Shown here one piece after another: positions 9,498 to 49,926 of a DNA stretch of 64,000 bases. The notes under the pieces were generated by a model that was not told where the DNA came from, made no database searches, and saw nothing but the letters and a program-made list of their open reading frames with translations. Source of the DNA: Aquabacterium humicola (GTDB lineage: Bacteria > Pseudomonadota > Gammaproteobacteria > Burkholderiales > Burkholderiaceae_C); NCBI RefSeq assembly GCF_030167915.1, contig NZ_JARGNB010000004.1:372001-436000 (forward strand), read 5' to 3'. Position 1 is the first letter of the stretch, and each line of letters starts with the position of its first letter. Made by a program: the position numbers and the translations under genes.

Positions 9498-12050
<2,553 letters not shown>

Positions 12051-12467: not shown

Positions 12468-13472
12468 CTACTGCCTGGCCCCTTCGCCCAGCCGCCGGCC
12501 CAGGCCGATCGCATAGGGTGCGGCGCGCGCGCCGAGCAGCGGATCGGCCGAAGGCTCGACACCCTTGGGCAGCACCGTCGGGATGAAGGTCAGCGCCAGA
12601 CAGGCGCCGCCGCCGTCGGGCGCCACCTCGGTGATGCGCAGCTTGCCCAGCGACACCTTCCTGCGCTCGGCCGGCAGCGGCACCACCGCGCTGTCGAGCT
12701 TGTCGCCGCTGTCGGCGATCTGCAGCTGGAAGTCGAAGGCGACGTTGCCGGCCTTGACGCGCTCGCGCAGGTCGGCGGCGAGGAAGTTCGGGCCCTTGGC
12801 CTTGGCTTCGTCGTCGCTCAGGCCGGCGGCGCCGCCGATGGGCTCGAAGACCCATTTGCCCCAGGTCTTGCGGCCGCGTGCATCGACGAAGGCGAAGGCG
12901 TGCACGCCCCAGTAGTTGACGCTCGCGAAGCTCGCCGGCACCGGCTGGCTGGCGAAGTACCTGCCCTGCAGCAGCACCTCGGGGTTGGCGTCGGCGAAGG
13001 CCTTGACCTTGGCCGGGTCGGCCGCCTTGGTGGCCGGATCCGGGCGCAGCGACTCGACGCGGCCGAGCAACTGCTCCGGTGTCGCCGCGCCGAACACGGG
13101 CGCCGAGATGTTGCCCATCTGCCAGCTCTCGCCGTCCGGCAGGTTGAACTGCAGCGCGAGGTTGCGCTGGGTCTTCGTGTTGTCGGCGGCGTTCGGATTC
13201 GCGCCGCCGACGGAAAAGCGCACCACCACCGGCACCGGCTTGCCGCCGAAGGCCGAGGCCACGGACAGCGCACGCGCCTCGGCGCTGCCGACGAACTCTC
13301 CCGTCGCGCACAGGCCCTTGGCGCCCGAGCGGCGGTAGCCCTCGTGCTTGCCGAAGGTCGACTCGAAGGCATCGACCAGCTTGCCCGGGTCGGCCTGGGC
13401 TTGTGCGGAAGCCGACGCGGCCAGGGCGGCGGCGGCCAGGGCCAGCGGGGCGGCGAATCGGGACAGGGTCAT
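12468..13472 (-). CDS. Catalase-related (SrpA-like) periplasmic protein, distal His missing
   Basis: Member of the small catalase-related peroxidase family (usual length 320-360 aa; here 334). A Sec signal peptide (ALAAAALAASASAQA) sends it to the periplasm. Recognisable family segments are GYRRSGAKGLCATGEF, PVPVVVRFSVGGANPNAADN, YWGVHAFAFVDARG and a C-terminal LGKLRITEVAP. In the family as I know it the first segment reads HAKG, with the His acting as the distal heme catalytic residue. Here it reads GAKG (Gly at residue 50), so catalase/peroxidase activity is doubtful. GGAG precedes the ATG at 13472. It is divergent from the gamma-glutamyltransferase gene across a 223-bp spacer that must hold both promoters. 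Confidence 0.85.
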   Translation of the reverse strand: MTLSRFAAPLALAAAALAASASAQAQADPGKLVDAFESTFGKHEGYRRSGAKGLCATGEFVGSAEARALSVASAFGGKPVPVVVRFSVGGANPNAADNTKTQRNLALQFNLPDGESWQMGNISAPVFGAATPEQLLGRVESLRPDPATKAADPAKVKAFADANPEVLLQGRYFASQPVPASFASVNYWGVHAFAFVDARGRKTWGKWVFEPIGGAAGLSDDEAKAKGPNFLAADLRERVKAGNVAFDFQLQIADSGDKLDSAVVPLPAERRKVSLGKLRITEVAPDGGGACLALTFIPTVLPKGVEPSADPLLGARAAPYAIGLGRRLGEGARQ

Positions 13473-13695
13473 CAAGCGCTCCAGCGGTCGAGGTGGGTCA
13501 AGGTCGGGGTGTGACGAGCGGTCACGGCGGATTGGCCCATCAGTCGGGCCGCAACCGGGAACCTTACGCGCGCACCGGGCGCCCGGATGCGTCGAGGTCC
13601 GCCGCCCAGCCGGCATCGCCGCCGGCGCCGACTGCGGTCTTGCAGCGGACCCGCGGCGTACCATGCGCGCGAGCTGATTCCGGAGCTTCGCGACG

Positions 13696-15342
13696 ATGAG
13701 CGCCTCGCCTTCATCCCCTTCATCGATCCCCTTCGACTGGCGTGCCGGCTACCCGTCCGTGCGCCAGCCGGTCTTCGCGCGCAACGCCGTCGCCACCTCG
13801 CACCCGCTCGCCGCGCAGGCCGGCCTGCGCATGCTGGCCGCCGGCGGCAATGCGGTCGATGCGGCGATCGCCACCGCGGCGGTGATGACCTTGGTAGAGC
13901 CCTGCAGCAACGGCCTCGGCTCCGACGCCTTCTGCATCCTGTGGGACGGCCAGCAGCTGCACGGGCTGAATGCCTCGGGCACGGCGCCGGCGGGCTGGTC
14001 GCCCGCGTACTTCCGCGGCAAATACGGCGCCGATGCGAAGACGCCGCCGGCGCGCGGCTGGGACGCGGTGACGGTGCCGGGCGCGGTGGCCGCCTGGGTG
14101 ACCTTGAGCGAACGCTTCGGCAAGCTGCCGTTCGCCGACCTGCTGGCGCCGGCGATCGAGGTCGCCGAGCGGGGTTACGCGGTGCCGGTGATCGTGCAGC
14201 AGAAATGGGCGCTGGCGACGCCGGTGCTGTGCGGCTTCCCGGGCTTCGCCGAGACCTTCCTGCCGCATGGCCGCGCGCCGGACGTGGGCGAGCGCTTCAC
14301 GATGCCGGGCGCGGCGCGCGCGCTGAAGGCCATCGCCGCAACCCGCGGCGAGGCCTTCTACCGCGGCGAGATCGCCGCCGCCGCGGCCGCGCATGCGAAG
14401 CAACACGGCGGTGTGATGACGGCCGCCGACTTCGCGAGTTATCGGCCCGAGTGGGTCGGCACGATCTCGGCCGAGTACCGCGGCCACCGGCTGCACGAGA
14501 TCCCGCCGAACGGCCAGGGCATCGCGGCGCTGATCGCGCTGTCGCTGCTGCGGCGCTTCGACCTCGCCTCGATGGACCCGGACGGCCCGCAGGCGCAGCA
14601 CCTGCAGATCGAGGCGATGAAGCTGGCGTTCGCCGACACCTACCGCTACGTGTCCGATCCGTCGTCGATGGACGTCACCCCCTTGCAGCTGCTCGACGAG
14701 GCCTACCTCGCCGAACGCGCGAAGCTGATCGACCCGTCGCGCGCGCAGGACTTCGGCGCCGGCAATCCGGTCAAGGGCGGCACGATCTACCTGACCGCGG
14801 CGGACGAGCGCGGCATGATGGTCAGCTTCATCCAGAGCAACTACATGGGCTTCGGCTCGGGCGTCGTGGTGCCCGAGTGGGGGCTGTCGCTGCAGAACCG
14901 CGGCCACGGCTTCACGCTCGACGAGGGCCATGCGAACGTCGTCGCGCCGGGCAAGCGGCCGTTCCACACCATCATCCCGGCCTTCCTGACGGACGGTGAC
15001 GGCCAGCCGCGCATGAGCTTCGGCGTGATGGGCGGCAACATGCAGCCGCAGGGCCACCTGCAGACGGTATCGCGCATGCTGGACCACCGCCAGTCGCCGC
15101 AGGCGGCCTGCGACGCGCCGCGCTGGCGCTTCAACCAGGGCCTGTCGATCAACGTCGAGGCGACGATGCGGCCGGTCACCATCGAGGCGCTGCGCGCGCG
15201 CGGCCACCAGATCGAGTCGATCCACGACAGCTATCAGGACCTCGGCGCCGGCCAGTTCATCTGGCGGCTCGGCGATCCGGCCGTCGAGGGTTATGTCTGC
15301 GCCAGCGACCCGCGGCGCGACGGGCTGGTGGCGGGCTGGTGA
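13696..15342 (+). CDS. Gamma-glutamyltransferase family protein
   Basis: Ntn-hydrolase of the gamma-glutamyltranspeptidase family (548 aa), cleaving gamma-glutamyl amides such as glutathione and related acyl donors. The N-terminal half carries VATSHPLAAQAGLRMLAAGGNAVDAAIA and EPCSNGLGSDAF. The autoprocessing site with the nucleophilic Thr is in GGTIYLTAADERG. The small subunit continues SFIQSNYMGFGSG and RPFHTIIPAF. No signal peptide is visible, so it may be cytoplasmic, unlike E. coli Ggt, and the substrate may differ (cephalosporin-acylase-like members exist). The stop overlaps the next gene's GTG start (GTGA). Confidence 0.9.
   Translation: MSASPSSPSSIPFDWRAGYPSVRQPVFARNAVATSHPLAAQAGLRMLAAGGNAVDAAIATAAVMTLVEPCSNGLGSDAFCILWDGQQLHGLNASGTAPAGWSPAYFRGKYGADAKTPPARGWDAVTVPGAVAAWVTLSERFGKLPFADLLAPAIEVAERGYAVPVIVQQKWALATPVLCGFPGFAETFLPHGRAPDVGERFTMPGAARALKAIAATRGEAFYRGEIAAAAAAHAKQHGGVMTAADFASYRPEWVGTISAEYRGHRLHEIPPNGQGIAALIALSLLRRFDLASMDPDGPQAQHLQIEAMKLAFADTYRYVSDPSSMDVTPLQLLDEAYLAERAKLIDPSRAQDFGAGNPVKGGTIYLTAADERGMMVSFIQSNYMGFGSGVVVPEWGLSLQNRGHGFTLDEGHANVVAPGKRPFHTIIPAFLTDGDGQPRMSFGVMGGNMQPQGHLQTVSRMLDHRQSPQAACDAPRWRFNQGLSINVEATMRPVTIEALRARGHQIESIHDSYQDLGAGQFIWRLGDPAVEGYVCASDPRRDGLVAGW

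Positions 15343-32612: not shown

Positions 32613-32613
<1 letters not shown>
32053..32613 (-). CDS. MarR family transcriptional regulator
   Basis: 186-aa winged-helix regulator. The MarR core reads [68 protein letters not shown], with recognition helix and the wing [11 protein letters not shown] Pro/Ala-rich tail follows. MarR proteins in such operons normally repress until the aromatic substrate or its CoA ester binds. It lies within the operon (start overlaps the preceding stop as TGATG), so it would be autoregulated through the dyad at 35042-35058. Confidence 0.93.
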
Positions 32614-34997
<2,384 letters not shown>

Positions 34998-35024
34998 TGC
35001 AGCTCGCTCCAATCGATGGGCTGC

Positions 35025-38900: not shown

Positions 38901-40904
38901 ATGCGCAGCTCCCCCGCCTGGCGTGACCCCCTCGATGCGGCATCGCCGCCGGCGGTGGCGGGCGCGTCGGCCCGGCGCGGCAACCGGCGCCGGCTGCTGG
39001 TGTTCGGCGCGGTGTTCGTCGTGCTGGTGGCCGCCGGGCAGTTCTGGAACTGGTCGCGCCCGGCGCAATACCAGGCGAGCACGCGGCTGCAGGTGCAGCT
39101 GCCGGCGAGCGCCGCGGCGGCCAGCAATGCGCTGGCGGCCGAGACCGGCCTGGGCGTGCAGGTGCAGAGCATCGTCAGCACGCCGATGCTGCAGCAGCTG
39201 GCGCGCCGGCTGGCGGCGGCGGGCCAGCCGGTGGCCGCCGGCGAGGGCGATGCGGTCGGCACGCTGCGCCGCCTGATCAGCGCGCAGCGCGTCGCCGATA
39301 CCGAGGTGCTGGAGCTGCGTGCCGCCGGCACGGAGCGCACGCTGCTGGCGCCGGCGCTGAACGAGCTGGTGGCCGCCTACCGCGACCAGCTGCTGGCCGA
39401 CTTCGAGCGCGACAGCACGCAGCAGCTCGCCGGCCTGCGCGGCGAGCTCGCGCGCATCGAGAAGAACGCCGCCGAGCGGCGCGCGCAGCTGGAGCGCTTC
39501 CGCGGCCGCAGCGGCCTGGTCAGCACCGAGCGCGAGGATGCCGAAGCGGTGGCGCGCAGCCGCGGCCTGTCGACCGCGCTGAACAACGCGCTGGAGAAGC
39601 AGGCGGCGGCCGACGCGAAGCTCAGCGCGCTGAAGCAGGCGGCCGCCGGCGGGCCGGCGGTGCGCTCGAAGGACGACCCGACGCTGTCGGCGCTGGAGAC
39701 GCGCGCCTCGCAGCTGCGCGAGGAAGTGCGCGAGATGGAGCGCAGCTTCACGCCCGACTTCATGGCGATGGACCCACGCGCGAAGGCGCTGCGCACGCGG
39801 CTGGCCGAGATGGAGCGCCAGATCGCCACCCAGCGCAGCGCCGGACAGGCCGCGGTGCTGGCCGGCGCCCAGGAGGACGCCGCTGCGGCGCAGGCCGCGG
39901 TCGAGCGGCTGCGCGTGCAGCTGGCGCAGCAGGGCGCCGGCATGAAGACCTTCCAGGCCGGTTTCACGCAGGCCAAGCTGCTGGAGGACGACCTGGCGCA
40001 GGTCGAGAAGGCCCGGCGCGAGCAGCTGGAGCGGCTGGCGCGGCTGGAGGCGGCCGAGCGCAACCGCGCGCCGCGCATCCGCGTGCTGGAGGCCGCCGCC
40101 GCGCCGAGCGAGCCCTACGCGCCCGCCTACTGGCGCGACGGTGCGCTGGTGGTCGGCGCGGCGTTCGCGCTCGGGCTGGTGGCGATGGGTTTCGTCGAGC
40201 TCTTCAACCGCCCGCCGCCGGCCGTCGCGCCCGCGCCGTCGACCACGGTGGTCTTGCCGCACTGGAACGCGGCGCCGGGCCTGGCGGCCGCTCCGGCACC
40301 GGCGCTGCTCGGCGCCGCAGCGCCGGTCGAACGGCTGGCCGGGCCGGCGGCGCCACCGCCGCGCGAGCTCGAGCAGGCCGAAGCCGCCGCGCTGCTGGCG
40401 GCGGCCCAGGGGCCCACCCGCATCGCCTGCGCCGCCGCGCTGCTGGGCCTGGGCGCCGACGAGTTGCTGGCGCTCCAGGCCGGCGACCTCGACCGCGCCG
40501 CGCGGCGGCTGCAGGTCGGCGGCAGCGCGCCGCGGCGTGTGCCGGTGCCGGACTGGCTGGCCGACGAAGTCACGCGCGCCGCCGCGGTCGGCGACGGGCC
40601 GCTGCTGCGCGATGCGGCCGGCCGCCCGCTCGATGCAAGCCAGCTGCGCGTGGACGTCACCTGTGCCGCGGTCGATGCCGGCCTGCCGCATCCGGCGGAC
40701 GTGACCCCCGCGCTGCTGCGCCACACCTGCATCGCGTGGCTGGTCGGCCAGGGGCTGCGCTTCGCCGAGCTGCCGGCGCTGGTCGGCCCGGTGGACCTCG
40801 ACACGGTCACCGCGCTCGCCGGCCGCGTATCGCCCGCCGTGCGCCGCGGCGCCGCCGAGATCGAACCGATGATGCCGGCGCTGCGGCTCGCGCCGCCGGT
40901 CTGA
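38901..40904 (+). CDS. Wzz/GumC-like polysaccharide co-polymerase fused to a degenerate tyrosine-recombinase-like domain
   Basis: 667-aa fusion. TM1 lies at about residues 31-48. A periplasmic Wzz-type head (QYQASTRLQVQLPASA) and long coiled coil (about 165-390, with SKDDPTLSALETRASQLREE) follow, then TM2 at about 414-434 (DGALVVGAAFALGLVAMGFVEL). This is the architecture of chain-length determinants that set exopolysaccharide length. After an Ala/Pro-rich cytoplasmic linker, residues 488-645 look like a XerC-type catalytic domain: LLGLGADELLALQAGDLD, RRVPVPDWLADEV, LRHTCIAWLVGQGL and LPALVGPVDLDTVTALA. Only the middle Arg (R607) survives. The first Arg position is Gly (518), the two His positions are Ala604 and Pro630, and no Tyr follows, so it cannot recombine DNA. 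No tyrosine-kinase Walker motifs are present. AAAGAGAA precedes the ATG. No other polysaccharide genes lie nearby. Confidence 0.85.
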   Translation: MRSSPAWRDPLDAASPPAVAGASARRGNRRRLLVFGAVFVVLVAAGQFWNWSRPAQYQASTRLQVQLPASAAAASNALAAETGLGVQVQSIVSTPMLQQLARRLAAAGQPVAAGEGDAVGTLRRLISAQRVADTEVLELRAAGTERTLLAPALNELVAAYRDQLLADFERDSTQQLAGLRGELARIEKNAAERRAQLERFRGRSGLVSTEREDAEAVARSRGLSTALNNALEKQAAADAKLSALKQAAAGGPAVRSKDDPTLSALETRASQLREEVREMERSFTPDFMAMDPRAKALRTRLAEMERQIATQRSAGQAAVLAGAQEDAAAAQAAVERLRVQLAQQGAGMKTFQAGFTQAKLLEDDLAQVEKARREQLERLARLEAAERNRAPRIRVLEAAAAPSEPYAPAYWRDGALVVGAAFALGLVAMGFVELFNRPPPAVAPAPSTTVVLPHWNAAPGLAAAPAPALLGAAAPVERLAGPAAPPPRELEQAEAAALLAAAQGPTRIACAAALLGLGADELLALQAGDLDRAARRLQVGGSAPRRVPVPDWLADEVTRAAAVGDGPLLRDAAGRPLDASQLRVDVTCAAVDAGLPHPADVTPALLRHTCIAWLVGQGLRFAELPALVGPVDLDTVTALAGRVSPAVRRGAAEIEPMMPALRLAPPV

Positions 40905-42176: not shown

Positions 42177-43298
42177 GTGACTGGGCCAACGGACGGCGAT
42201 CAGGGCGGCGGCCGCCCCGCCCTGTCCCCCGACACCGACACCCTGCGCTACTGCACCACCGCCGACGGCGTGCGCCTGGCGATGCGCCAGCTCGGTCAGG
42301 GGCCGCTGGTCATCAAGGCGGCCAACTGGCTGGGCAATGTGCAGGCCGACGCCACGCTGCGCTCGTCGCGTCACTGGGTCGACCAGCTCACGCGCGCGCA
42401 CACGCTGCTGTGGTACGACGCACGCGGCTGCGGCCTGTCCGACCGCGAGGTCGACGACGTCTCGCTCGACGCCTGGGTGCGCGACCTCGAGGCGGTGGCC
42501 GATGCCGGCGGCCACGAGCGCTTCGTGCTGCTGGGCATCTCGCAGGGCGCGGCGATCGCCATCCGCTACGCGGTGCGCCATCCCGAGCGCGTGCGCGGGC
42601 TGGTGCTCTACGCGAGCTTCGTGCGCGGCGCCTTCCACCAGGGCCTGTCGGCGAAGACGCAGGCGGTGTTCACCGAGATGATCCGCATCGCCGAGCTGGG
42701 CTGGGGGCACGACGCCAGCACCTTCCGCCGGCTCTTCTCGTCGCAACTGCTGCCGGCGGCGCCCGCCGATGTGCTCGATGCCTACGACGCGCTGCATCGC
42801 CACAGCGTCAGCGGGCCGATGGCCGCGCGCTACATGCGCGCCTTCTTCGAGCTCGACGCCCGCGTCGATGCGCCGCAGGTGCGCTGCCCGACGCTGGTGA
42901 TGCACGTGCAGGACGACGCGCTGATCCTGCAGCGCGAAGGCGCGCTGGTGGCCTCGCTGATTCCGGGCGCGCGCTGGGTGGCGGTTCCGGGGCGCAACCA
43001 CCTGCCGCTGGTGACCGACCCCGGCTGGCCCACGCTGCAGCGCGAGATGGCGGCCTTTCTCGCATCGCTGGCCGCCGCCGACGCCGGCGCCGGCACGCCG
43101 GCGCCGCAGCTCACCGCGCGCCAGCGCGAGGTGCTGCTGCACGTCGCGCGCGGCCTCGGCGACAAGGAGATCGCGCGCGCGCTGCAGCTCAGCCCGCGCA
43201 CCGTGGAGATGCACGTCGCGCGGGCGCTGGCCGCGCTGGGCGCCCGCAACCGCTCCGAAGCGGTCAGCCGGGCACACCACTGGAAGCTCCTACCGTAG
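42177..43298 (+). CDS. Alpha/beta-hydrolase domain fused to LuxR-type DNA-binding domain
   Basis: 373-aa fusion. Residues 20-290 form an alpha/beta hydrolase: LWYDARGCGLSDRE, the nucleophile elbow LLGISQGAAIAIRYAVRHPE (GISQG) and a terminal GRNHLPLV with the His. Residues 300-370 form a LuxR helix-turn-helix: LTARQREVLLHVARGLGDKEIARALQLSPRTVEMHVARALAAL. Such proteins may use the hydrolase fold as a ligand sensor, perhaps for an ester or lactone. The start is the GTG at 42177; the nearby ATG at 42163 runs into a stop. It is divergent to nothing and lies 28 bp after the phosphofructokinase gene. Confidence 0.9.
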   Translation: MTGPTDGDQGGGRPALSPDTDTLRYCTTADGVRLAMRQLGQGPLVIKAANWLGNVQADATLRSSRHWVDQLTRAHTLLWYDARGCGLSDREVDDVSLDAWVRDLEAVADAGGHERFVLLGISQGAAIAIRYAVRHPERVRGLVLYASFVRGAFHQGLSAKTQAVFTEMIRIAELGWGHDASTFRRLFSSQLLPAAPADVLDAYDALHRHSVSGPMAARYMRAFFELDARVDAPQVRCPTLVMHVQDDALILQREGALVASLIPGARWVAVPGRNHLPLVTDPGWPTLQREMAAFLASLAAADAGAGTPAPQLTARQREVLLHVARGLGDKEIARALQLSPRTVEMHVARALAALGARNRSEAVSRAHHWKLLP

Positions 43299-43323: not shown

Positions 43324-43415
43324 TACCGTGGTCCGCCGCCTACCCGGCGCAGCGCCGGTCGACCACGATGGCGCTGCCGGGGCCCCGCCGGGGCCCGCAC
43401 CGTCCGGAGTGCCCC

Positions 43416-44660
43416 ATGCTGCAGACCCTCGAAACCCCGCTTCCCATCCCGACGCTGGCGCGCGCCGTGGCCGACCTGCGCGATCCGGCGTGGCTGACGC
43501 AGCCGCGCGAACAGGCGCGCCGGCTGCGTGCGCAGGGCCGCGTGCACCGCGACACGCTGGGCCTGTGGCTGCTGCTGGGCCATGCCGACTGCCGCGCCGC
43601 GATGCAGAGCAGCCGGCTCAGCCGCGACCCCCGGGCCGGCACGAGCTACGCGTCGCAGCGCCCGTTCGGGGCCGGTTCGGCGCTGGAGCGGGCCGCCGAA
43701 CGCTTCATGATCTTCAACGACCCCCCGGTCCACACCCGGCTGCGGCGCATCGTGGCCGCCGCGTTCACGCCGGCGTCCACGCGCGACCTGCGCGCCTCGG
43801 TGGCCGCCACCGTGCAGTCGCTGCTCGACGGCTTGCCGGCCGACGCGCCCTTCGACTTCATGCGCCAGGTGGCGCAGCTGCTGCCCATCCGCGTGATCTG
43901 CGACCTGCTGGGCATCGACGCCGGCGACTTCGACCAGGCCAAGGCCTGGTCCGACGCCGCCGTCTGCGTCGTCGAGCCGCTGGCCACGCGCAGCGCGCGT
44001 GCGCAGGGCGCCCAGGCGGTGGCCGAGCTGACCGCCTTCCTGAGCGCGCAGGTGGCGCGGCGCCGCGCGCGCCCGGGCGACACGGTGATCGACCGCATGA
44101 TCGCCGCGCAGCGCGACGATCCGGCCTTCGATGACGACGAGCTGCTGGCCAACCTGATCCTGATGTTCATCGCCGGTCACGAGACCACCACGAACCTGCT
44201 CGGCAACGGGCTGCTCGCGCTGCTGAGGCATCCCGAGCAGCTGGCGCTGCTGCGCCGCGAGCCGGCACTGCTGCCCTCGGCGGTGGAGGAGATGCTGCGC
44301 TACGAGAGCCCGACCAACATGGTGGCGCGCACGACGCTCGAGCCGTGGACCATCGACGACCTCACGGTGCCGCCCGGCGAGGTGCTCTACTGCATGATCG
44401 GCGCGGCCAACCACGACCCCGCGGTGTTCGAGCAGCCCGAGCGCTTCGACATCACGCGGCATCCGAATCCGCAGTTGTCCTTCGGCGGCGGCGTGCACTA
44501 CTGCGTCGGTGCGCCGCTGGCGCGGCTGGAAGCGGAGGTGGCCTTCGAGGCCCTGCTGCGGCGCTTCCCGTCGCTCGCGCTCGTCGACGAGGCGCCGACC
44601 TGGCGGCCGATGATCAACCTGCGCGGGCTGCAGTCGCTGCAGGTGCGCGGCGCAGCCTAG
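43416..44660 (+). CDS. Cytochrome P450
   Basis: 414-aa soluble bacterial P450. The heme-thiolate loop is FGGGVHYCVGAPLARLE, the I-helix oxygen-activation motif is MFIAGHETTTN, and the K-helix ExxR lies in VEEMLRYESP. The segment RTTLEPWTIDDLTVPPGE is typical of the CYP107/CYP109-like bacterial group. It would need a ferredoxin and reductase; none is in the window. GGAG lies 7 bp before the ATG at 43416, which is preferred to the open frame start at 43368. Its stop overlaps the stop of the convergent downstream gene (CTAG). The substrate is unknown. Confidence 0.95.
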   Translation: MLQTLETPLPIPTLARAVADLRDPAWLTQPREQARRLRAQGRVHRDTLGLWLLLGHADCRAAMQSSRLSRDPRAGTSYASQRPFGAGSALERAAERFMIFNDPPVHTRLRRIVAAAFTPASTRDLRASVAATVQSLLDGLPADAPFDFMRQVAQLLPIRVICDLLGIDAGDFDQAKAWSDAAVCVVEPLATRSARAQGAQAVAELTAFLSAQVARRRARPGDTVIDRMIAAQRDDPAFDDDELLANLILMFIAGHETTTNLLGNGLLALLRHPEQLALLRREPALLPSAVEEMLRYESPTNMVARTTLEPWTIDDLTVPPGEVLYCMIGAANHDPAVFEQPERFDITRHPNPQLSFGGGVHYCVGAPLARLEAEVAFEALLRRFPSLALVDEAPTWRPMINLRGLQSLQVRGAA

Positions 44661-46836: not shown

Positions 46837-49800
46837 GTGATCAGTCTCCAGAACGGCTCGACTTACAGCCAGAACTTCGACACGCTGGCCGCCAGCGGCA
46901 CTTCGTCGGCGATGCCCGACGGCTGGTTCTTCAGCGAATCCGGCACCAACGCCGACGGCACCTACAACACCGGCAACGGCAGCAACAACGCCGGCAACAC
47001 CTACAGCTTCGGCGCCACCGGCAGCAGCGAGCGCGCACTCGGCGGCTTGCTGTCGGGCAGCCTGACGCCGCTGTTCGGCGGCCAGATCAGCAACGACACC
47101 GGCGCGACGCTGCTGTCGGTCGCGATCTCCTACTTCGGCGAGCAGTGGCGCTTCGGCGCGACCGGCCGGGCCGACAAGCTGGATTTCCAGTACAGCCTCG
47201 ACGCCACCTCGCTGACCACCGGCACCTGGGTCAACGTCGATGCGCTGGACTACGGCGCCGCGCAGCAGGCGGCCGCCGGCCCGGTCGACGGCAATGCCAA
47301 CCGCACGGCGGTCAGCGGCAGCATCGAAGGGCTGAACCTCGCCAGCGGCGCCACGCTGTGGATCCGCTGGACCGATGCCAACGTCTCCGGCGCCGATGAC
47401 GGACTGGCCATCGACGACCTGCAGATCACGCCGACCACCGGCGGCGGCGGCGCGCCGGTGGTCAACCTGTCGGTCAGCAGCGCCACCGCCTCCGAGGCCG
47501 ATGGCACGGTGATCACCGTGACCGCGACGGCGACGCAGGCCGTCAGCGGCGCGCAGACCGTGACCCTCGGGGTCGGCGGCAACGGCATCACCGCCGGCGA
47601 TTACCTGCTCAGCAGCACCACCATCACCATCCCCGACGGCCAGACCAGCGGCTCGGTGAGCTTCACCGTGCAGGACGACGGCGTGCCCGAGGGCAACGAG
47701 ACCGCGGTGCTGACGATCAGCGACCCGAGCGCCGGCATCACGCTCGGCGGCACGGTGTCGCAGAACGTGGTCATCACCAACAACGATGCCGGCCAGCCGC
47801 CGCTGAAGATCTCGGCGATCCAGGGCGCGGCGCACCTCTCGCCGCTGCTCGATTCGGCGACCGACACCGCGCCGGTGCAGAACGTGCGCGGCATCGTCAC
47901 GGCGATCGGCAGCAACGGCTTCTACATGCAGGACCCGGAGCCGGACGCGGACATCGCGACCAGCGAGGCGATCTTCGTCTTCACCGGCGCGAACTCGCCG
48001 AACCTCACCGCACGCACGGTCGGCGAGGCGGTGCAGGTCGCCGGCACGCTCAGCGAGTTCCGCCCCGGCGGTGCGTCGAGCAACAACCTGACGGTGACGC
48101 AGATCTCGAACAATGCCAACGTGCAGGCGCTGTCGATCACCGCCTGGGCCGGCGCACCGGCCGGCGGCATCGCGCCGACGGTGCTGGGCGTGGACCGCGT
48201 GATGCCGACCCAGGTGATCCACGACGACTTCGCGGCGCCGGCGCATGTCGAGTCGGGCGGCGACTTCGACCCGGCCACCGAGGGCATCGATTTCTTCGAG
48301 AGCCTCGAAGGCATGCTGGTGCAGATCAACGGCGCGGTGACCAGCTCGCCGACGATCAACTTCAACAACAACTCGCAGGAGATCTGGGTGCTGGCCGATG
48401 GCGGCGCGGGCGCCACCAGCACCACCGCGCACGGCGGCGCGCTGATCAACGCGAACGACTTCAATCCCGAGCGGCTGCAGATCGACGATCTGATCAACTC
48501 GACCAGCATGCCCACCGTCGACGTCGGCGCGATCCTCGGCACTACGGTGGGCGTCGTCAACTACGACTTCGGCAACTACGAGGTGCTGGTGCCGGTGGCG
48601 CCGTCGGTCGAACAGGCGTCGCAGCTCGAGCGCGAAGTGACGACGCTGGGTCCGCAGGCCGACCAGCTGCGGCTGGCGAACTTCAACGTCGAGAACCTCG
48701 ACCCCAGCGACGGCGCGTCGAAGTTCAACGCGCTGGCGGCGGCCATCGTCGCGAACCTGAAGTCGCCGGACATCATCACGCTCGAAGAGGTGCAGGACAA
48801 CAGCGGCGCCACCAACAACGGCATCGTCGACGCCAACGTCACGCTGCAGATGCTGATCGACGCCATCGCCGCGGCCGGCGGCCCGACCTACCAGTTCCGC
48901 CAGCTCAACCCGGTCAACGGCCAGGACGGCGGCGAGCCGGGCGGCAACATCCGCGTCGCCTTCCTGTTCAACCCGTCGCGCGTCGGCTTCGTCGAGGACT
49001 CGCTCGAGCGCATCACCGACACCGATCTGTCCAACGGCGACGCCTTCGCCGCCAGCCGCAAGCCGCTGGTCGGCACCTTCACCTTCCACGGCGAGGCGGT
49101 GACCGTGGTCGGCAACCACTTCAATTCCAAGGGCGGCGACCAGGCGCTGTTCGGCGCGACGCAGCCGCCGGTGCTGGGCTCCGAGGTGCAGCGCCAGCAG
49201 CAGGCCGAGATCGTCGGCGACTACGTCGAGGCGCTGCTGGCCGAGAACCCGCATGCCAATGTCATCGTCGCCGGCGACCTCAACGACTTCGAGTTCTCGA
49301 ACCCGGTCGAGCGCCTGAAGGACGCGGGCCTGGATGCGCTGATCGAGACGCTGCCGGCGAACGAGCGCTACAGCTACAACTTCGAGGGCAACGCGCAGAC
49401 GCTGGACCATGTGATGGCCAGCGACCGCCTGATGGGCCACCTGGCCGGCTTCGACGTGGTGCACATCAACTCGGAGTTCTTCGACCAGATGAGCGACCAC
49501 GACCCGAGCGTCGCCGCGTTCACGATCGCGCTCGGCCAGACCATCAACGGCACCAACCTGCGCGACAACCTGAAGGGCACCGCCGCCAACGACACGATCC
49601 GGGGCGGCGCCGGCCGCGACCTGATCGCCACCGGCGGCGGCGCCGACACGCTGGTCTACACCAGCCTGCTCGATGCCGGCGACATCGTCAGCGACTTCCA
49701 GCCGGGCATCGACCACCTGAACATCGCCGCGCTGCTGGCGAGCATCAAGTACGCCGGCAGCGACCCGGTGGCCGACGGCGTGCTGGCCGTCGTCGCCGCG

Positions 49801-49926
49801 ACCGGCAAGAGCCTGGTGACCATCGACGTCGACGGCAGCGCCGGACCGGGCGCCGCGCGCGTCCTGGTCGAGCTGACCGGCGTCGCGGCCTTCGATGCCG
49901 ACCTGCTGCTCGCGCCGGGCACCTGA
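46837..49926 (+). CDS. Secreted RTX-tailed nuclease/phosphatase (ExeM/NucH-like)
   Basis: 1029-aa extracellular enzyme without Sec signal, so probably type I secreted. Order of domains: an N-terminal beta-sandwich (about 1-200), a Calx-beta-like module (about 205-315, ATASEADGTVITVTATATQAVSG and VPEGNETAVLTISDP), and an OB-fold region (about 320-480, VQNVRGIVTAIGSNGFYMQD). An endonuclease/exonuclease/phosphatase catalytic domain follows (about 610-905: LRLANFNVENLD, PDIITLEEVQDN, VGNHFNSKGGDQ, VIVAGDLNDFEFSNP, SDHDPSVAAF), then an RTX-type C-terminus (NDTIRGGAGRDLIATGGGADTL). Catalytic Asn, Glu, Asp and His are all in place. Extracellular DNA degradation is the likely role. GTG 46837 is preceded by AGGAG. 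Confidence 0.92.
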   Translation: MISLQNGSTYSQNFDTLAASGTSSAMPDGWFFSESGTNADGTYNTGNGSNNAGNTYSFGATGSSERALGGLLSGSLTPLFGGQISNDTGATLLSVAISYFGEQWRFGATGRADKLDFQYSLDATSLTTGTWVNVDALDYGAAQQAAAGPVDGNANRTAVSGSIEGLNLASGATLWIRWTDANVSGADDGLAIDDLQITPTTGGGGAPVVNLSVSSATASEADGTVITVTATATQAVSGAQTVTLGVGGNGITAGDYLLSSTTITIPDGQTSGSVSFTVQDDGVPEGNETAVLTISDPSAGITLGGTVSQNVVITNNDAGQPPLKISAIQGAAHLSPLLDSATDTAPVQNVRGIVTAIGSNGFYMQDPEPDADIATSEAIFVFTGANSPNLTARTVGEAVQVAGTLSEFRPGGASSNNLTVTQISNNANVQALSITAWAGAPAGGIAPTVLGVDRVMPTQVIHDDFAAPAHVESGGDFDPATEGIDFFESLEGMLVQINGAVTSSPTINFNNNSQEIWVLADGGAGATSTTAHGGALINANDFNPERLQIDDLINSTSMPTVDVGAILGTTVGVVNYDFGNYEVLVPVAPSVEQASQLEREVTTLGPQADQLRLANFNVENLDPSDGASKFNALAAAIVANLKSPDIITLEEVQDNSGATNNGIVDANVTLQMLIDAIAAAGGPTYQFRQLNPVNGQDGGEPGGNIRVAFLFNPSRVGFVEDSLERITDTDLSNGDAFAASRKPLVGTFTFHGEAVTVVGNHFNSKGGDQALFGATQPPVLGSEVQRQQQAEIVGDYVEALLAENPHANVIVAGDLNDFEFSNPVERLKDAGLDALIETLPANERYSYNFEGNAQTLDHVMASDRLMGHLAGFDVVHINSEFFDQMSDHDPSVAAFTIALGQTINGTNLRDNLKGTAANDTIRGGAGRDLIATGGGADTLVYTSLLDAGDIVSDFQPGIDHLNIAALLASIKYAGSDPVADGVLAVVAATGKSLVTIDVDGSAGPGAARVLVELTGVAAFDADLLLAPGT

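Follow-up and report, generated by a model that had tools for sequence, protein, structure and literature searches.

What is a tyrosine-recombinase domain doing at the cytoplasmic end of a membrane protein built like a polysaccharide chain-length determinant? The question is raised by a gene at 38901..40904 (+) of the window (i.e. the whole stretch of 64,000 nucleotides analysed here), which an earlier note, made from the letters alone, had described as a Wzz/GumC-like protein carrying a dead recombinase domain. The coordinates, frame and motifs quoted there were exact: the frame is open for 667 codons, and the 667-amino-acid product aligns with 17 relatives at 26–70% identity (70% for the closest, 26–43% for the other 16). 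This product is a polysaccharide co-polymerase-like protein with a C-terminal degenerate tyrosine-recombinase domain.

The two membrane helices proposed to flank a coiled coil were recovered in the full-length AlphaFold2 model (pLDDT 76.2; with a pTM of 0.43 the mutual placing of the parts is not given by the model). A first membrane helix region (aa 20–52; 38958..39056, +) is followed by a long stretch of coiled-coil helices, presumably periplasmic (aa 146–385; 39336..40055, +), to which the PslE and Wzc matches described below also point, and by a second membrane helix (aa 410–436; 40128..40208, +). A disordered cytoplasmic linker (aa 441–483; 40221..40349, +; pLDDT <50) then leads into the degenerate catalytic-domain fold of a tyrosine recombinase (aa 484–667; 40350..40901, +), an assignment drawn from Pfam, NCBIfam, profile, AlphaFold2 and Foldseek results.

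The join itself is real. The profile search for other fusions proposed in the earlier note detected full-length relatives in nine of 200 same-family genomes (own genome included, and leaving out three more weak matches to the N-terminal part only) and in 10 of 399 genomes of the order (own included; one cut by a contig end), the latter spread over four families (f1, f6, f16 and f21). In a phylum-wide sample, three of 398 genomes matched at E<=1e-30, namely the own genome, one of family f16 and one from another family of the class. A single-sequence scan of public contigs with the window protein found no relative; an alignment-based scan that drew on closer relatives yielded 26 loci, half of them (13) covering the protein and the other 13 matching parts of the N-terminal half only. 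The 13 covering loci belong to Rhodoferax, Rubrivivax, Pseudorhodoferax, Paucibacter, Variovorax boronicumulans, a Burkholderiales strain and a Methylobacter MAG, and four of them were taken to be the same genomes as G069, G077, G175 and G182 of the family sample. A plasmid search for relatives gave no match. The recurrence of the same join in the family and order samples, in 13 public contigs (one of them frameshifted) and in a genome from a different family within the class rules out the assembly error that the earlier note had allowed for, and leaves practically no room for any assembly or annotation artefact fusing two genes. The frameshifted copy is that of the Methylobacter MAG (L063, about 10001–11873), the second half of which lies in another frame, possibly through a sequencing error.

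From the window sequence alone the match to recombinases is weak: the isolated domain hits Pfam Phage_integrase (PF00589) at E=0.0019 (18.4 bits, under the curated 27.1) and NCBIfam XerA_Arch at E=8.7e-5 (22.2 bits, cut-off 220). Once relatives are included, the match is firm. A domain profile of 13 rows (the window protein and 12 relatives) matched the XerC-like structure 4a8e (4.3e-8), XerA 5hxy (8.4e-8) and XerD (2e-5), and Phage_integrase was matched by 13 of 18 family members at E<=0.1 (best 3.1e-9). Conversely, when the full-length profile was run against the 399 order genomes, genes identified as recombinases from their motifs matched its C-terminal half with E-values down to 6e-15. Modelled alone with AlphaFold2, the domain adopts a compact, confident fold (pLDDT 89.7, pTM 0.87), for which Foldseek returned XerA first (E=5.9e-6, TM 0.72, 18% identity) and tyrosine recombinases, judged by title, at all of ranks 1–45. 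The XerC catalytic-domain pattern read from the letters was thus borne out by the profile and by the structure prediction and fold search for which the earlier note had called. The core-binding domain that precedes the catalytic domain in recombinases is absent from the model, its place after the membrane helix being taken by the 43-residue disordered linker. The recombinase-domain profile also matched chain 14 of PDB 9i5v (E 5.2e-5), a 401-residue entry labelled as ribosome-associated translation inhibitor RaiA, which may be mislabelled or else an unexpected relative.

No member of the family retains a complete active site (0/27). Catalytic positions were read off by aligning 27 members to an intact Xer-type protein (from the L061 locus) as reference, and the residues kept were Arg I in one member, the hairpin Lys in two, the HxxR His in none, Arg II in 24, His/Trp in two and the nucleophile Tyr in eight. 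In the window protein, the former Arg I position is now G518 (40452..40454, +), the HxxR His position A604 (40710..40712, +), the His/Trp position P630 (40788..40790, +) and the nucleophile position L639 (40815..40817, +), so that R607 at the Arg II position (40719..40721, +) is the sole survivor among six catalytic positions, just as the earlier note had it. This position is not invariant across the family (Arg in 24/27, His in 3/27). Several substitutions recur among the 27 proteins, with Arg I replaced by Ser or Thr in 20, the first His by Glu in 16 and the second His by Arg in 16. The eight proteins with Tyr at the nucleophile position are the five of f16, the one of f53 and two more (L025, L026, L027, L029, L030, L003, L022 and L086), all of which have lost most of the active site; the survival of this Tyr would fit decay from an active enzyme.

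The charge of the domain has changed as well. Its pI lies between 4.8 and 5.9, with a net charge of −4 to −9, in 17 of 18 members (the remaining one has pI 8.4 and net +1), against pI 9.1–10.4 and net +2 to +10 in all 13 control recombinase domains from order genomes, a comparison of overall pI and net charge rather than of surface electrostatics (a 76-residue second match was dropped from one control, and one of the 13 lacks the usual GLR motif). Because the domain is acidic where recombinases are basic, and because the core-binding half is absent, DNA binding by the domain is unlikely, and the suggestion that it might bind DNA was not supported. Precedent does exist: excerpts of PMC10516654 describe MrpR as a dead recombinase turned into a DNA-binding repressor of prophage SPbeta, and MrpR and YopR appear as weak Foldseek matches to the domain model (rank 48 with E 0.055 and rank 50 with E 0.1). 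Together with the retention of Arg II in 24 of the 27 proteins and the single member of pI 8.4, this gives some colour to a membrane-anchored, MrpR-like regulator linking the envelope with the chromosome or with a promoter. We nevertheless judge such a regulator improbable, given the contrast in charge, the disordered linker that stands where the core-binding half should be and the replacement of Arg II by His in three members.

Could the domain simply be the remnant of an accidental fusion, now drifting without function? That the catalytic positions differ between relatives would suit this idea. Against it, dN/dS ratios (Nei–Gojobori) in nine pairs were 0.07–0.38 for the domain, similar to the 0.04–0.40 of the N-terminal part, and reached 1.17 in the linker, which exceeds the other parts in most pairs. 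Five of these nine pairs were drawn from the same four sequences, the L025–L030 pair is saturated at synonymous sites, and the pair containing the window protein is the least constrained (domain dN/dS 0.38). By these ratios the domain is under purifying selection. Moreover, none of the close relatives found for the N-terminal part lacks the domain: match E-values fall from 1.9e-86 straight to 1.2e-5 in the family sample and from 1.3e-122 to 7.2e-25 in the order sample, with no domain-free close relative in between. With the compact fold predicted for the domain added, we regard a drifting remnant as highly improbable.

The N-terminal part is related to co-polymerases. The family profile matched PslE (1.5e-11 over 347 profile positions) and Wzc (4.5e-11) in the PDB, and Foldseek of the full model returned Wzc first, followed by recombinases, KpsE and WzzE, at a global TM of about 0.2–0.3. 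The Wzz/GumC-like label of the earlier note therefore stood in part, through these matches, through the relatives (at E<=0.1, Wzz, PF02706, was detected in 12 of 18 family members and GNVR, PF13807, in two) and through TIGR03007, but the window protein itself matched neither PF02706 nor PF13807, even at E<=1. TIGR03007, the chain-length determinant of the XrtA system, is the best named family of the window N-terminal part (E=6.8e-9), which speaks for a reading in terms of XrtA; its cut-off is missed by far (34.5 vs 278.85 bits), which counts against that reading. Among four non-fused relatives, two combine Wzz and GNVR with a kinase-type domain (AAA_31) at the C-terminal end, the third shows Wzz and GNVR alone and the fourth a weak Wzz match. 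The recombinase domain thus occupies the position that a kinase has in some relatives (two of four), and the idea of a non-catalytic cytoplasmic module in the place of a kinase holds good on both counts, with a recombinase fold lacking its active site and AAA_31 at the same end of those two relatives. When a tyrosine kinase fused or next door was looked for, no AAA_31-type kinase was found among the scanned neighbours, and all 16 carriers tested had at least one Wzz-type match besides the fusion gene.

The 19 fusions group together as a single clade (support 0.949), to the exclusion of four XrtA co-polymerases and 12 other proteins, in a midpoint-rooted tree with uncertain deep branches. Trees of the N-terminal part and of the domain had 12 of 16 splits in common, with two conflicts among the strongly supported ones, which suggests that the two parts share their descent mostly, not wholly. 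An origin of the fusion family as an offshoot of an XrtA co-polymerase was also considered; the tree does not nest it among the XrtA co-polymerases, a further point against the XrtA reading.

The surroundings of the gene say little of polysaccharides. In the window it is divergent from genes for a DctP-type binding protein and a hybrid histidine kinase, with phosphofructokinase downstream, and no polysaccharide gene cluster or operon surrounds it there, which again counts against the XrtA reading. Of the neighbours of other fusions, to which the earlier note had also pointed, none is conserved between genera when nine loci are compared, and polysaccharide genes lie near the fusion at three of 17 scanned neighbourhoods, most other neighbours being unrelated (the Pfam scan covered 40 proteins at 16 further loci, in most cases the closest gene called on either side, with a home-made gene caller). 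At one of the three (L081) a flippase is the called gene next to the fusion, and UDP-glucose dehydrogenase is encoded about 2 kb upstream in another (L015) and two genes downstream in the third (L078).

Other features of these neighbourhoods deserve mention in their own right. In a Rhodoferax locus (L061), the fusion gene has an intact Xer-type recombinase gene (13080–14027, +) some 1.2 kb downstream. In the window, 42177–43298 (+) encodes an alpha/beta hydrolase with a C-terminal LuxR-type helix-turn-helix, followed by a cytochrome P450 at 43368–44660. The product of 46837–49926 (+) is large and shows matches to Calx-beta, LapA-like, endonuclease/exonuclease/phosphatase and RTX repeat sequences; it could be a nuclease or phosphatase that is secreted. 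At 32613–35012 (−), one gene joins an FAD-binding monooxygenase domain to a domain of Old Yellow Enzyme type; it adjoins MarR, enoyl-CoA hydratase and acyl-CoA dehydrogenase genes, surroundings that may represent an aromatic-CoA degradation cluster.

What is new here is that the carrier genomes tested all have XrtA (exosortase A), in 19 of 19 distinct carriers, a count that covers four of the 13 named-contig carriers. XrtA was scored as present where TIGR03109 (exosortase XrtA) was matched above its curated cut-off. In the family sample it was detected in 51 of 200 genomes, with all nine carriers among the positives. In 16 further genomes, which were those already in hand and all of which have some exosortase, the 10 carriers were XrtA-positive and the six non-carriers, all of f16, XrtA-negative; within genus g156, four carriers were positive and the six non-carriers tested negative (naive p 0.005). 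XrtA was found in 86 of 349 genomes of the order (a sample not necessarily all within the 399 searched for relatives), nine known carriers being among the positives (the own genome and eight of the previous ten); the tenth order-sample carrier, G573, is not in that list of positives and was tested in the 16-genome set. Naive p-values for the co-occurrence were 2.6e-6 (family) and 2.4e-6 (order), which ignore kinship and treat related genomes as independent. The association runs in one direction: the fusion gene is missing from 42 of the 51 XrtA-positive family genomes, and 77 of the 86 positives of the order sample are not known carriers, so XrtA can do without the fusion gene, another point against the XrtA reading.

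Four of the 19 XrtA loci were examined, and each encodes a TIGR03007 co-polymerase (517–526 amino acids, with the kinase separate) and a TIGR03018 kinase above cut-off; the fusion would hence be an extra co-polymerase in these genomes, no replacement. In G069 and G175 the XrtA gene lies about 36 kb from the fusion on one contig, and elsewhere the two are far apart or on different contigs. Two further candidate links were set aside. A PEP-CTERM type sigma-54 promoter was not supported, with no near-complete site upstream of 27 genes (best 7–9 of 11.5, in a consensus scan without shuffle control). Poly_export, detected in nine of nine carriers and 144 of 200 family genomes (naive p 0.048), is too common to inform as a co-occurrence marker.

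These observations can be read in two ways. To our minds there is about an even chance that the protein is an accessory co-polymerase which has no kinase, is encoded away from the XrtA locus and belongs to the XrtA (exosortase A, PEP-CTERM) exopolysaccharide system, with the dead recombinase serving as a protein-docking or assembly module; its putative role in polysaccharide length is inferred from homology and XrtA co-occurrence. The other reading, possible if unlikely, gives the protein a different envelope task in XrtA-positive cells, such as the anchoring or sorting of PEP-CTERM proteins or the scaffolding of a complex, with the co-polymerase body acting as a membrane cage. It would suit a lone gene with few polysaccharide neighbours and none conserved across genera, XrtA co-occurrence is as compatible with sorting as with polysaccharide, and all four XrtA loci examined already have a co-polymerase of their own. 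The relationship of the N-terminal part to Wzc, PslE and TIGR03007 argues the other way, as do the flippase next to the fusion at one locus and the UDP-glucose dehydrogenase near it at two.

If the protein is indeed an accessory co-polymerase, the N-terminal part would take part in, or regulate, the assembly of co-polymerases in the inner membrane. The dead recombinase domain, carried by its flexible linker, would act as a module binding other proteins or neighbouring protomers. Recombinases make protomer contacts through the catalytic domain and its C-terminal helix, and these contacts may have been a useful starting property for a docking module. The domain could then take over, with no phosphorylation involved, the part that the kinase plays in Wzc, namely the steering of assembly and disassembly, by analogy with the pseudokinase EcpK and its co-polymerase EpsV. 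The first candidates for a partner would be the co-polymerase of the XrtA locus (TIGR03007) or its kinase (TIGR03018).

The wider proposition, that a recombinase fold has become a DNA-free docking domain running a co-polymerase without phosphorylation, in a separate, fused and kinase-independent branch tied to exosortase A, we put forward tentatively, at somewhat less than even chances. In the usual picture, co-polymerases alternate between an assembled and a free state, with a tyrosine kinase in control. A dead recombinase in the place of a kinase offers a natural test of co-polymerase control without phosphorylation and, if the proposition is true, a case of the recombinase fold used away from DNA. 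The link between polysaccharide and protein in exosortase A systems is poorly understood, and the association of the fusion with exosortase A suggests that this widespread system has an accessory part that had gone unrecognised. Among the matches listed from open-licence PMC papers, none, judged by title and abstract start, describes the joining of an integrase or recombinase to a co-polymerase or chain-length protein, and the word integrase is absent from the excerpted main text of PMC1569441.

Compared with known systems, the fusion domain shares the catalytic-domain fold of XerA, XerC and XerD, but has neither active site nor core-binding domain, is acidic and is tethered to the membrane. 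MrpR and YopR likewise have a tyrosine-recombinase fold without recombination; in the excerpts of PMC10516654, however, MrpR retains the core-binding domain and binds DNA, whereas the fusion domain lacks the former and is negatively charged. PslE of Pseudomonas aeruginosa is the best co-polymerase sequence match of the N-terminal part in the PDB, yet its residues after 506 are unmatched by the family profile, and the domain profile has no PslE match at E<=1. The XrtA pair of TIGR03007 and kinase TIGR03018 resembles the fusion in being linked to it by both the best named family and the genomes in which it occurs; the TIGR03007 proteins seen differ in having a separate kinase, and the fusion scores far under their cut-off.

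With the PCP-2a protein Wzc of E. coli and Klebsiella, the fusion shares two membrane helices, a long helical periplasmic part and a cytoplasmic C-terminal domain, the differences being the degenerate recombinase fold in the kinase's place and, in the window, the position of the gene apart from polysaccharide genes. According to excerpts of PMC12004946, PCP-2 function depends on changes in oligomeric state set by the tyrosine kinase, and the pseudokinase EcpK is proposed to act as a scaffold on EpsV instead of by kinase action. The EcpK–EpsV and HfsB–HfsA pairs, as presented in those excerpts, thus resemble the fusion in combining a co-polymerase with a catalytically dead cytoplasmic module, a proposed scaffold; there, however, the dead module is a separate protein of kinase fold, while here it is fused to the co-polymerase-like part and has the fold of a recombinase.
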